From: Mucilaginibacter straminoryzae
Lineage (GTDB): Bacteria > Bacteroidota > Bacteroidia > Sphingobacteriales > Sphingobacteriaceae
Length of the DNA: 64,000 bases
Direction of reading: 5' to 3'
Assembly: GCF_022953055.1 (NCBI RefSeq)
Contig: NZ_JALJEJ010000006.1
Span: forward strand, 186,001-250,000
The position numbers were made by a program, and so were the translations under genes. Below are positions 59,552 to 62,640 of this stretch, piece by piece. The number at the start of each line of letters is the position of its first letter. Positions within the stretch are counted from its first letter, which is position 1. The notes beneath the pieces are model-generated. The model was not told where the DNA came from, ran no database searches, and was given only the letters and a program-made list of their open reading frames with translations.

Positions 59552-60028
59552 TTATTCCAGGCTGATTTGTCTTTTAATGCTTTCTTCTAAAGAGATAAAG
59601 GTTTCTGTTCGTTGTATGCCCGGTACGCTCTGGATGTGTTCATTCAGCACTTCGCGTAAATGAGCGGTATCGTGGCATACAATTTTGGCAAAAATACTCC
59701 AGCTTCCGGTGGTATAATAAAGCTCTACAATTTCCTTAATTTCTTTCAGCTGCCTTACAGCATCATTGTATTGTGAGCCTTTTTCGAGATAAATACCAAG
59801 GAAGGCTGTGATATCAAAACCTAACTTTTGCGGATCTACCTCCAGACTGGCACCTTTTATCACACCCATCTCCTCCAATTTTTTCATGCGTACGTGAATG
59901 GTGCCGCCCGAAACGATTAACTCTTTTGCAATTTCCGTATACGGTGTGGTTGCATTGTTCATCAATATTGATAAAATCTGGATATCGAGATTATCAATTT
60001 CTAAATTTTGAGCTTTTTTGTGGGGCAT
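59552..60028 (-). CDS. Lrp/AsnC family transcriptional regulator
   Basis: 158 aa. N-terminal winged helix (LDIQILSILMNNATTPYTEI, VSGGTIHVRMKKLEEMGVI) and C-terminal RAM/ligand-binding domain (about 70-150, FLGIYLEKGSQYND, ELYYTTGSWSIFAKIV). Members respond to amino acids and form octamers. Divergent from a tRNA-like gene with 155 bp between, including that gene's promoter. No metabolic gene is next to it. Convergent with tex. Confidence 0.92.
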   Translation of the reverse strand: MPHKKAQNLEIDNLDIQILSILMNNATTPYTEIAKELIVSGGTIHVRMKKLEEMGVIKGASLEVDPQKLGFDITAFLGIYLEKGSQYNDAVRQLKEIKEIVELYYTTGSWSIFAKIVCHDTAHLREVLNEHIQSVPGIQRTETFISLEESIKRQISLE

Positions 60029-60102
60029 AAATTTTAAAAAAAGTATTTATTCACAAGTCTAATTAAAATTTGAATAAAAATAAAATTATTTCTTTGAAAT
60101 AT

Positions 60103-60133
60103 TTGCAAGAAATCACAACCTGCATTAAATTTG
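60103..60133 (+). promoter_or_regulatory. Consensus promoter of the tRNA-like gene
   Basis: TTG (60103-60105), 20 bases, TAAATTTG (60126-60133), exact to the -7 consensus. The transcript would start near 60138, about 45 bases before the mature 5' end. Confidence 0.6.
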
Positions 60134-60182
60134 TATCAAGCAACTGAGAAATAGTAGCTCTCGTTCTTAAAAATAAATACAC

Positions 60183-60294
60183 TGTTGGGTGGTGAAATTT
60201 TTGGCAGACACACCTCCTTGTCCCGGTGGCGGAGAATCTGGGAAACCCGATGCGGGCTAACCACTCTGTGAAGGTTCGAGTCCTTCCCCAACAG
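60183..60294 (+). tRNA. Oversized class-II tRNA-like gene (112 nt, about 40-nt variable arm)
   Basis: Acceptor stem 183-189/287-293 (TGTTGGG with CCCAACA), 7 of 7 Watson-Crick. D stem GTG/CAC (192-194/209-211) with a 14-base loop containing GG. T stem GAAGG/CCTTC with the canonical loop TTCGAGT (275-281). Discriminator G294, then CCT, so CCA would be added by enzyme. The anticodon stem CCTCC/GGTGG (213-229) has a central T-T mismatch; the loop TTGTCCC would put GTC at 34-36 (Asp), with C at 37. The variable region (230-269) can form CGGAG/CTCTG, TGG/CCA and CCCG/CGGG. Normal class-II tRNAs are 85-95 nt. Alternative pairings of the middle exist, so the anticodon is uncertain. A degenerate tRNA is the main alternative. 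Confidence 0.6.
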
Positions 60295-60330
60295 CCTCTT
60301 CTCATAATTTAGGTTTATAATTGGTTAGTA

Positions 60331-60356
60331 AAAGTCCCCTGCCCATCAGGGGCTTT
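60331..60356 (+). terminator. Terminator of the tRNA-like gene
   Basis: AAAG-T-CCCCTG pairs with CAGGGGCTTT around CCCAT (one bulged T), followed by GCTGTTT. It lies 36 bases after the tRNA-like 3' end. Confidence 0.7.
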
Positions 60357-60508
60357 GCTGTTTCTAAGGGTTTCGTAATCCAAATCAAGCTATCCAGAAC
60401 AACTATCGTTCGCAATCACTTTACTGTGGATGTCCACACTGTGTAATTTCGTATCGTATAAAACAAGCGTTAGGCTTTTTTGTATAGTATGTCTTATCGT
60501 ATAGAAAA

Positions 60509-61513
60509 TTGCCTGCTCTTTTTCATAACATTGCATTTTTAAAATCTACTTTTTTGAACGGTACCGGTAAGAAAATACTTTCATGGACGATAAAGGCAGC
60601 CATACTGGTACTGGCATTTGTATTTATCTACCACAAGGTTACCAGTAACCAAAACCTGGCGCAGTTTAAGCTGCTGCTAAGCCATATCGAAAGCAGTACC
60701 GCTATTGCTATCATGGGTACCGTGTTCCTGCTAATGTTGTGTAATTGGTTCCTGGAGGCATTAAAATGGCGTTTCCTTACCCGTACACTTACGCCAATAA
60801 GTATTTATAAAGCTGTAGAGGCTGTTTTCTGCGGGTTAACCTGGGCTGTTTTTACCCCTAACCGTTTGGGCGAATATGGTGGGCGGGTGATGTTCCTTCC
60901 ACCGCGAAAGCGCATCCACGGGGTGTTTTCTATGGCCGTCGGCTCAATAGGACAGATGGTAATTACTAACGTGCTGGGTCTTATCGCTATCCTTTGGTTC
61001 ATTTTTCGCTTTCTGCACGTTCAATTGTGGTTATACCTTGCGGCGGTAAGTCTTGCAATACTTGTTATTGCACTGCTGCTGATCTTTTACTTTAACATTA
61101 GCAGCCTGGTTGGGGTACTCAACAGCGTAAAGTTCCTTAAAAAGTATCACCGCTTTTTTAGCATCATGAACCGCTACCGCAAGAAAGAGCTGAACCAGAT
61201 CATGGGCTTCTGCCTGGCACGCTTCGCCGTGTTTACATTTCAATACTACCTGGTATTGCACCTGCTGATACCAGACCTTGGCTTGTTCACCATCTGCATG
61301 ATGGTGTTTATCATGTTCTTCATTCAATCCATCCTCCCCTCGCTGGATCTGTTTGACGTTGGCGTGCGGAATGTTACCGCTACGTTTTTCTTTGCCTATG
61401 TTACCCACCAGGAAATAGCTGTTATGGCTGCGGTATCCAGTATCTGGTTTGTTAATTTAATTTTGCCCGCTATTCTGGGCTCGGTGTTTGTTTTTAAAAT
61501 GAAATTCTTTTGA
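60509..61513 (+). CDS. Flippase-like membrane protein (LPG synthase TM/UPF0104 family)
   Basis: 334 aa with 7-8 membrane segments (IKAAILVLAFVFIYHKV at about 28-45, ATAIAIMGTVFLLMLC, and so on). CGLTWAVFTPNRLGEYGGRV is the GE-YGGR-type signature of lysylphosphatidylglycerol synthase TM-region proteins, which flip lipids or lipid-linked sugars. There is no ATG near the 5' end; a stop at 60485 limits the frame and the candidates are TTG at 60509 or 60554. The next gene, a glycosyltransferase, starts with TTG inside this stop (TTGA, 61510-61513). The pair probably makes and moves a glycolipid. Confidence 0.85.
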   Translation: MPALFHNIAFLKSTFLNGTGKKILSWTIKAAILVLAFVFIYHKVTSNQNLAQFKLLLSHIESSTAIAIMGTVFLLMLCNWFLEALKWRFLTRTLTPISIYKAVEAVFCGLTWAVFTPNRLGEYGGRVMFLPPRKRIHGVFSMAVGSIGQMVITNVLGLIAILWFIFRFLHVQLWLYLAAVSLAILVIALLLIFYFNISSLVGVLNSVKFLKKYHRFFSIMNRYRKKELNQIMGFCLARFAVFTFQYYLVLHLLIPDLGLFTICMMVFIMFFIQSILPSLDLFDVGVRNVTATFFFAYVTHQEIAVMAAVSSIWFVNLILPAILGSVFVFKMKFF

Positions 61514-62640
61514 TCGCTACTATTACATACCTTTCTTATTTACTTACCGGGCTGTACCTGCTCGTGCTGGTTTACATGATCCGCGGCTGGGGCGCTATAA
61601 AAAGACCTGCACTTCCAAAGCGCGAGTTTAAAAGCCGGATTACCATATTAATAGCTGCCCGGAACGAAGAGGATAATATCGGTGCGACGATTAATGATCT
61701 GCTGGCGCAGGATTATCCGCGTGAACTGACAGAGATCATTATCGTAGACGACCACTCTACAGACCGCACGGCAGAGATTATTACCAGCTATGCCAGCCAG
61801 GGCGTAAAGCTGCTACAGCTAAAGGAAGAACAGGCCCTTAACTCTTATAAAAAGAAAGCCATTGCCGAGGCGATTAAACAATCAACCGGCGAGATTATGG
61901 TGGCTACAGACGCCGATTGCCACATGGGGCCGCAATGGTTATCAACAGTCGCAAATTACTTCGAAACTTATAACCCGGTAATGGTATCCTCGCCGGTGAC
62001 CTATTACCGCGAGCAGTCCTTGTTCGAGCGGGTACAGACACTGGAATTTAGCTATCTCATCGGGCTGGGCGCCTCGTTCATTGGTAATGGACGTGCCTCT
62101 ACCTGTAACGGCGCAAACCTTGCCTATCGTAAAGATGTGTTTTTTGAAGTTGGTGGTTTTGCGGGGATAGATGATGTCGCTTCCGGAGATGATGAGCTAT
62201 TACTACAAAAGATTGCGGTAGTGTATCCGGGCCGTATCGCCTTTCTGAAAGACGCACGCGCCGTGGTATACACCTATGCCAAACCGACACTTAAAGCATT
62301 ATTGCAGCAGCGCAGGCGCTGGGCTTCCAAATCTACCAAATACAAGGATAAAAAAGTGGTGGCATTAGCCGTAGGCATCTGGCTGTTTAACGTATCGCTG
62401 CTGGTTAACCTGATGGCCGGTTTCTGGTTCCACGCGTTATGGATAGTCTTCGCTATACAACTATTGTTGAAGTTCCTTTTCGAAATTATTTTCCTGCTAC
62501 CGATTACCTTATTTTTCCGCCGTCCAAGCCTCGTTGTCTTGCTTACGATACTTTCGCCGGTACACATTCTTTATTTTGTTTATGTGGGTTTTATTGGCAA
62601 TACCAGAAAATACGATTGGAAGGGACGCACCGTGCGTTAA
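61510..62640 (+). CDS. Family 2 glycosyltransferase, membrane bound
   Basis: 376 aa. N-terminal membrane segment (YLSYLLTGLYLLVLVYM), GT-A domain (about 35-270) with ILIAARNEEDNIGATIND, IIVDDHSTDRTAE, the DxD-type metal site Asp134-Ala-Asp136 (ATDADCHMG), the acceptor loop and QRRRWASKSTKY (R-RW motif of processive-type GT2). Two or three C-terminal membrane segments (about 285-370). Start is TTG at 61510, overlapping the flippase stop. The sugar and acceptor are unknown. Confidence 0.9.
   Translation: MIATITYLSYLLTGLYLLVLVYMIRGWGAIKRPALPKREFKSRITILIAARNEEDNIGATINDLLAQDYPRELTEIIIVDDHSTDRTAEIITSYASQGVKLLQLKEEQALNSYKKKAIAEAIKQSTGEIMVATDADCHMGPQWLSTVANYFETYNPVMVSSPVTYYREQSLFERVQTLEFSYLIGLGASFIGNGRASTCNGANLAYRKDVFFEVGGFAGIDDVASGDDELLLQKIAVVYPGRIAFLKDARAVVYTYAKPTLKALLQQRRRWASKSTKYKDKKVVALAVGIWLFNVSLLVNLMAGFWFHALWIVFAIQLLLKFLFEIIFLLPITLFFRRPSLVVLLTILSPVHILYFVYVGFIGNTRKYDWKGRTVR

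Follow-up and report, generated by a model that had tools for sequence, protein, structure and literature searches.

A tRNA-like RNA family of Bacteroidota genomes and viral contigs that keeps an aspartyl-tRNA synthetase identity set

tRNA-like RNAs that keep the identity of one synthetase while staying off the codon table are, to our knowledge, very rare; tmRNA, a stand-alone tRNA-like RNA with an aminoacylation identity and a large insert, is the classic case. Kissing loops of the DIS type are known as the dimer signals of retroviruses. A long variable arm resembling that of tRNA-Sec is found in the allo-tRNAs, for which the account in PMC7609411 (after Mukai et al., 2017) gives 8/4 or 9/3 stems, occurrence in Clostridia, Proteobacteria, and Acidobacteria, serine or alanine identity, and diverse anticodons, GUC among them. 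Regarding synthetase identity, PMC9976931 lists G73, G34, U35, C36, and C38 as strong aspartate determinants, joined by G10 in bacteria. Bacterial tRNA-Asp strictly conserves G1-C72 and G2-C71 according to the same source, the former of which reportedly assists in placing the 3' end in AspRS. The bacterial serine set given there comprises G73, C72, G2-C71, R4-Y69, C11-G24, and a large variable region, whereas leucine has A73.

The RNA presented here, termed TLR (tRNA-like RNA), combines features of several of these molecules. Like tRNA-Leu, it has 7/5 acceptor and T stems, a D arm of the TG-GTG..CAC type with GG, and a long variable arm; it differs in carrying G73 rather than A73, an Asp anticodon with C38, and U1-A72, and in measuring 108-196 nt rather than 82-86 nt. 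It shares G73, G34, U35, C36, C38, and G2-C71 with tRNA-Asp, but departs from it by its class II variable arm, U1-A72, a Leu-type D arm, an unfixed U33, and a position 37 that is not A. In contrast to the allo-tRNAs as described in PMC7609411, TLR is of the 7/5 type and has one anticodon. Unlike tmRNA, it possesses a full anticodon arm and an AspRS rather than an AlaRS identity, and inspection of the insert by eye revealed no tag reading frame. Copies in viral contigs carry GCGCGC, GTGCAC, and other self-complementary loops reminiscent of DIS; here, however, 22 different palindromes occur in the variable arm of a tRNA-like RNA, and dimerisation would be their presumed effect.

The window copy and its family

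The window is the whole stretch of 64,000 nucleotides that was analysed. Its relevant features are:

60183..60294, + strand: TLR, type A copy, 112 nt including G73 (from direct reading, R1 score, and homologues)
60183..60189, + strand: 5' half of the acceptor stem, 7 bp with 60287-60293 (TGTTGGG/CCCAACA), including U1-A72, G2-C71, and U3-A70
60192..60211, + strand: Leu-like D arm, 3-bp stem GTG/CAC (60192-60194/60209-60211) and a long loop holding GG
60213..60229, + strand: anticodon arm, CCTCC-TTGTCCC-GGTGG, with anticodon GUC at 60220-60222 and C38 at 60224
60230..60269, + strand: variable region, 40 nt, with a basal stem (60230-60234/60264-60268), a TGG/CCA helix (60239-60241/60261-60263), and an apical hairpin (about 60246-60256)
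60270..60294, + strand: T arm (60270-60286), 3' acceptor strand (60287-60293), and discriminator G73 (60294); the next base is C
60102..60133, + strand: promoter-like TTTG (60102-60105), 20 nt, and TAAATTTG (60126-60133), by direct reading
60163..60168, + strand: GTTCTT box of the leader, putatively boxA-like (counted in 172 leaders)
60297..60359, + strand: 3' module, TCTTCTCATAATTTAGGTTTATAATTGGTTAG plus a terminator hairpin with loop TGCCCATCA; 22-nt core; also found as stand-alone copies
59552..60028, - strand: Lrp/AsnC-family regulator, divergent neighbour (PF01037, PF13404)
60509-62640: downstream 334-aa ORF followed by a GT2 glycosyltransferase gene (Pfam search)

Direct reading of the sequence gives a 7/5 cloverleaf at exactly 60183-60294. 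This agrees with the preliminary description, which had placed a class-II molecule with a 40-nt variable region, a mismatched anticodon stem, a GUC anticodon, and G73 at these positions and had set it apart from the 8/4 and 9/3 allo-tRNAs. The anticodon stem of 5 bp contains a central U·U mismatch and closes a 7-nt loop, TTGTCCC, which places U33, G34, U35, C36, C37, and C38. Position 26 is A, the 5-bp T stem (GAAGG/CCTTC) carries the loop TTCGAGT, and CCA is not encoded. Single-sequence folding favours a 10-nt loop closed by CACC/GGTG, which we discarded because distant copies show the 5-bp stem and 7-nt loop. We also considered an anti-Shine-Dalgarno function, given that CACCTCCTT resembles the 3' end of 16S rRNA. 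The only place in the genome with its 11-nt complement, ACAAGGAGGTG, is TLR itself, and distant relatives have CCCTC there, so CACCTCCTT is the anticodon stem.

Standard tools pass over this RNA. ARAGORN reported neither a tRNA nor a tmRNA in the 64-kb window, and its search with introns allowed was blank for tRNAs over the 600 nt around TLR, so the idea of an intron-containing tRNA was dropped. Rfam gave no match at the gathering cut-off across the window and, for 60000-60420 at E<=5, nothing beyond a CRISPR match due to chance, and TLR is not among the 39 matches of RF00005 in its own genome. Given that the folding energy alone is ordinary (z 0.20), the case for TLR rests on conservation and covariation. 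R1, a covariance model built from the window copy and relatives that all bear GTC, scores the window copy at 123.8 bits (E 4e-32), as compared to at most 49.5 bits for the tRNA loci of the same genome tested alongside; the best of these are tRNA-Leu genes (38.8-49.5 bits). The preliminary description had named homologues and covariation as the check on its reading, and a decayed Leu or Ser tRNA as what might overturn it. The homologues, the R1 score, and the conservation across 235 copies described below rule out an ordinary or decayed tRNA.

A DNA search of 60 genomes, including the own genome, recovered clear homologues in 36 of 37 Mucilaginibacter genomes, the remaining one (71% complete) having a match to the 3' module only, and partial homologues in two other families. 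Many congeneric genomes hold a second copy with the acceptor TGTAGGA/TCCTACA, often in tandem and with the 3' module behind it; two copies are present in 25/39 loci of a mainly congeneric set, while the window has the first type and the module without a second copy. In an alignment of 22 copies, 94.8% of cells are paired (89.9% when shuffled) and two-sided changes occur in 9 of 28 pairs (shuffled mean 3.8), whereas sliding the partners gives much worse values. One of five measures, the number of further pair types, showed no excess (16 versus 15.7 when shuffled). Both the basal and the TGG/CCA helices of the variable region have two-sided changes in this set, the basal stem also in a second count; none was seen in the anticodon and T stems of the 22 copies.

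When R1 was run over 395 genomes of the phylum, 368 gave some match. Long matches (at least 108 nt and, with one exception at 54.5 bits, at least 68 bits) come from at least 40 of the 395 genomes, in seven families; the other listed matches measure 82-85 nt at less than 59 bits and are read as ordinary tRNAs, the best ones in the own genome being tRNA-Leu. A pattern scan of GenBank species genomes, which required GTC and C38, found at least 119 stretches, in Mucilaginibacter, Pedobacter, Arcticibacter, Chitinophaga, Terrimonas, Spirosoma, Dyadobacter, Cyclobacterium, Algoriphagus, Fulvivirga, Saprospiraceae, and an Ignavibacteriales bin, among others. Many copies are longer than that of the window, reaching 196 nt by an insert in the variable arm, and 80 of 234 distinct copies carry the motif GGRUNGACC in this insert with a covarying helix around it. 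Rfam gave nothing at the gathering score for 20 related loci, and Rfam 15 at E<=5 gave nothing convincing for a second short stretch (the best match, CopA, lies on the other strand with 25.6 bits against a cut-off of 60). A literature search, with subscription papers and preprints outside its range, returned no paper that we recognised as being about this RNA. TLR thus apparently constitutes an undescribed RNA family, a variant of the tRNA-like kind.

TLR is flanked by putative signals for its own transcription. The promoter and terminator of the preliminary description are represented by a promoter-like sequence on the + strand and a hairpin terminator at about 60327-60359; the preliminary description had called the promoter an exact consensus, and we judged the boxes by the Bacteroidota promoter consensus. 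Similar boxes are visible in the printed relatives. Of 172 leaders, 76 have the box GTTCTT(T), in most cases at a distance of 15-30 nt from TLR, as compared to 3% of shuffles. It resembles boxA of rRNA leaders and could mean antitermination; for the comparison with rRNA leaders, the own genome provides only 57 nt upstream of 16S before the contig ends.

The 3' module has an existence of its own. Consisting of ATAATTTAGGTTTATAATTGGTTAG and a terminator hairpin with a C-rich loop of the TGCCCATCA or CTCCCC types, it forms a separate multi-copy sRNA-like family in the order, with up to 14 copies per genome, often right after a promoter-like sequence of its own (L003, L076-L078, L089-L118). Its 22-nt core (at most two mismatches) is present in 105 of 201 genomes of the order. 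Four congeneric genomes also contain mini tRNA-like elements of about 60 nt (L073, L074, and L075 on the + strand, L072 on the - strand), which have acceptor, D, and T arms, lack the anticodon arm, and are directly followed by the same module.

Identity set, anticodon loop and lrp linkage

Two finders underlie the counts below. The first required G73, which is hence found in 234/234 distinct chromosomal copies by construction, and only variants with TG at 8-9, the D-arm signature, and a GGTTCGA T loop pass it. The second placed no constraint on position 73, on the anticodon loop, or on most of the T arm, and returned 239 long chromosomal parses; its counts leave out four misparses and one parse below 100 nt. 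With position 73 free, G2-C71 and G73 occur together in 235 of the 239, the other four being three parses out of register (L202, L225, L230) and one that spans two tRNA-Leu genes. Among the 235 in-register copies, U35, C36, and C38 are each invariant and G34 is present in 233; an alignment of 24 copies (A2) includes two with U34 or C34. In 97 copies from loci not chosen by the anticodon pattern, some of which came via the GTC-derived R1, G73, U35, C36, and C38 are found in 97/97 and G34 in 95/97. The base after G73 is C throughout (235/235 with position 73 free, 275/275 in the G73-demanding set), while CCA is encoded in only 21 of the 275.

The family thus carries G73, G34, U35, C36, C38, and G2-C71 of the aspartate set. 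It lacks G1-C72, which is replaced by U1-A72 in 234/235 copies, and G10 is present in only 100/235 (including the window copy), both of which count against recognition by AspRS. The preliminary description had favoured a serine-type identity on account of the long arm and G73. Indeed, G73, G2-C71, and the large arm are present and R4-Y69 is found in 188/234 copies; however, C72 occurs in 0/234, A72 taking its place in all of them, and C11-G24 in 19/234. In addition, SerRS ignores the anticodon, so invariant positions 35, 36, and 38 would be pointless for this enzyme. The A73 of tRNA-Leu is likewise missing, every in-register copy having G73 with this position left free, and U3-A70 (234/234) stands in place of the G3·U70 read by AlaRS in tmRNA. 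Seven acceptor pairs in 232/234 copies (six in two) and a T stem of 5 bp separate the family from 8/4 and 9/3 tRNAs, under a finder that required at least six acceptor pairs and two T-stem pairs. Judged by these positions, the kept set is that of AspRS and not of the serine type, and we consider it probable that AspRS recognises TLR. The mini-forms count against this reading, since AspRS could not read RNAs without an anticodon arm in the usual way. A dedicated AspRS paralogue was considered and set aside: the own genome has only three PF00152 synthetase genes, counted as a set.

Features of the anticodon arm speak against decoding. U33 is present in 195 and missing in 40 of the 235 chromosomal copies, and position 37 is T in 159, C in 47, and G in 29, but never A; the window copy has U33 and C37. 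For comparison, the 37 distinct tRNAs of the own genome, tRNA-Asp included, all have U33 and a purine at 37 (A in 29, G in 8). The family thus departs from the U33 and purine 37 of an elongator tRNA-Asp. Moreover, U·U is found at 29-41 in 95 of 234 copies, most others having C-G, and the genome encodes an ordinary tRNA-Asp within a complete ordinary tRNA set. The view of the preliminary description that a non-translational or specialised role is likelier than ordinary decoding accords with the pyrimidine at 37 in most copies and the loss of U33 in some. We are rather confident that TLR does not decode, and binding or charging by AspRS without decoding appears likely.

At 78 of 117 named loci (117 of 119; L169 and L230 were unparsed), a divergent gene within 600 bp encodes an Lrp relative; of the 39 others, 11 have less than 600 bp of upstream sequence. 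The same arrangement is seen in 24/30 loci found with R1 and 34/39 mainly congeneric loci, two overlapping sets, but four second copies located elsewhere in Mucilaginibacter genomes (L065-L068) have no Lrp in the 528-543 nt upstream. Identity to the Lrp of the window is 49-94% among the linked proteins, whereas the other Lrps of the own genome reach 26-29%; by this measure, the linked proteins are one orthologue. Given this position of the gene, Lrp may regulate TLR. When neighbours were collected for 80 of the 119 named loci, Lrp was found in 51 and no other cluster in more than 12. Three genomes of the same family (G060, G063, G066; L276, L277, L278) have a module-like unit opposite the lrp orthologue and no long TLR among the matches listed, which suggests that the tRNA-like part was lost from this locus, or came to be inserted there later.

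On the downstream side, we dropped the idea of a lysyl-lipid flippase, as the 334-aa ORF matched nothing in Pfam at E 0.001 and blastp gave no match to it in the neighbour set from the 80 loci. The GT2 gene has matches at three of these loci (37-43% identical) and one weak match; GT2 relatives stand third upstream in L151, L162, and L165.

Copies in viral contigs

A pattern scan of IMG/VR, which required GTC and C38, revealed 113 viral stretches with TLR, yielding 73 distinct complete copies in 107 contigs (no complete copy at six of the 113 loci). With position 73 free, all 73 have G2-C71 and G73, while pairs 1-72 and 3-70 are each changed in three. Their anticodon loops are CTGTCTC in 63, TTGTCTC in six, and CTGTCCC in one. 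A second scan, in which all seven loop positions were free, gave GUC in 86/86, C38 in 81/86, and A38 in 5/86, counted as matches rather than independent sequences. Among the genes up to four ORFs away from TLR, 24 contigs have a member of a terminase-like family and 14 have a member of a portal-like family. PHROGs names five of seven neighbour representatives (exonuclease, terminase large subunit, portal, PhoH-like, and thymidylate synthase), the other two being one of unnamed function and one matchless. At least a good part of these contigs are therefore tailed-phage genomes. blastn found no match in GenBank phages with the window copy as query, nor in plasmids with one Chitinophaga copy.

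Viral copies have self-complementary sequences in the variable arm. Just after GGRUNGACCA, a palindrome of at least 6 nt is found in 61 of 68 copies (19.4 expected), of at least 8 nt in 45 (5.0 expected), and of at least 10 nt in 30 (1.3 expected), where the expectations are a guide only, since the sequences are related. The palindromes are of 22 kinds, and 52 of the 61 start 3-4 nt after the motif; a control stretch gave 1/73. Chromosomal copies exhibit only a slight excess, the same lengths being found in 29, 12, and 3 of 80 (22.1, 5.6, and 1.4 expected). Differing sequences with kept self-complementarity suggest that viral copies form kissing dimers. Several viral copies (L422, L426, L427, L431, L432, and others) also have an extended D loop that contains another self-complementary or hairpin sequence, e.g. 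GCGTACGC or GGTGTACACC.

Competing explanations and biological meaning

As the best explanation, we tentatively propose that TLR is an AspRS-linked regulatory RNA. A tRNA-Leu-like body (7/5, class-II arm) would have acquired and kept the AspRS identity set, be transcribed from the promoter opposite lrp, with the Lrp protein exerting amino-acid control, and mature at both ends like a tRNA. Host AspRS would bind and probably aspartylate it, while the anticodon loop, U1-A72, and the variable arm would exclude it from decoding. TLR could then act as an AspRS- or aspartate-linked regulator, either by titrating the enzyme or as a read-out of charging, and phages would carry their own, possibly dimerising version using the same AspRS contact. 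The strongest form of this proposal, i.e. an RNA of wide occurrence in the phylum that is aspartylated, never decodes, and is tied to an Lrp/AsnC sensor, and for which phages evolved kissing-loop versions to hijack AspRS, is rather doubtful as a whole.

Charging by AspRS could also serve a dedicated aspartyl donor that feeds a non-ribosomal transfer in cell-envelope, lipid, or peptide modification, just as dedicated tRNA-Gly species feed such transfer in staphylococci. That both ends of TLR carry their part of the AspRS set, i.e. the full anticodon determinants and G73, alongside the features against decoding, suits such a donor, as do the two or more copies at 35 of 117 named loci and the complete ordinary tRNA set, which renders a role in translation unnecessary. 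However, no neighbour cluster apart from Lrp (51/80 loci) reaches more than 12 loci, most clusters being without annotation, and phages would need the same pathway; we regard a donor as unlikely. Even less probable is a decoding tRNA, be it a tRNA-Asp with a long variable arm or a misreader of Asp codons, active in special conditions or in phages. While GUC together with U33 in 195/235 chromosomal copies and most viral loops would fit, and phages often carry tRNAs, the pyrimidine at 37 (206/235) and the missing U33 (40/235) set TLR apart from the 37/37 normal tRNAs of the genome, and the U·U mismatches, lengths to 196 nt, and a normal tRNA-Asp add to this.

Two further possibilities were weighed. 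As a processing or stability scaffold, the tRNA shape would recruit RNase P and 3' trimming and define the ends of leader and 3' module, making aminoacylation irrelevant. TLR directly precedes the module in Mucilaginibacter, as do the mini-forms without an anticodon arm, the module also exists as a stand-alone sRNA-like unit, and lrp can face a module-like unit with no long TLR among the matches listed. Yet none of 24 printed relatives has the module within 80 nt downstream, and those aligned keep U35, C36, and C38; a scaffold does not need these bases, so their conservation counts against it, and we consider this role improbable, much like decoding. Least probable of all, in our estimation, is a decoy by which hosts and phages protect themselves from an enzyme acting on the tRNA-Asp anticodon. 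Anticodon nuclease, GluQ-RS, and queuine transferase are enzymes of this kind, and a decoy would be in line with U35-C36 being invariant, and G34 and C38 almost so, in both hosts and phages. It would leave unexplained why G2-C71 and G73, at the opposite end, are just as fixed.

TLR occurs in several families of the phylum beside a feast/famine-type regulator, was missed by ARAGORN and Rfam, and is present in phage contigs, where its self-complementary loops vary. Direct tests thus become possible of whether amino-acid supply is sensed by charging an RNA that does not decode, and of why phages retain such an RNA. If the regulatory reading is true, aspartate supply would be read through RNA charging, with transcription of the RNA tied to an Lrp/AsnC amino-acid sensor.
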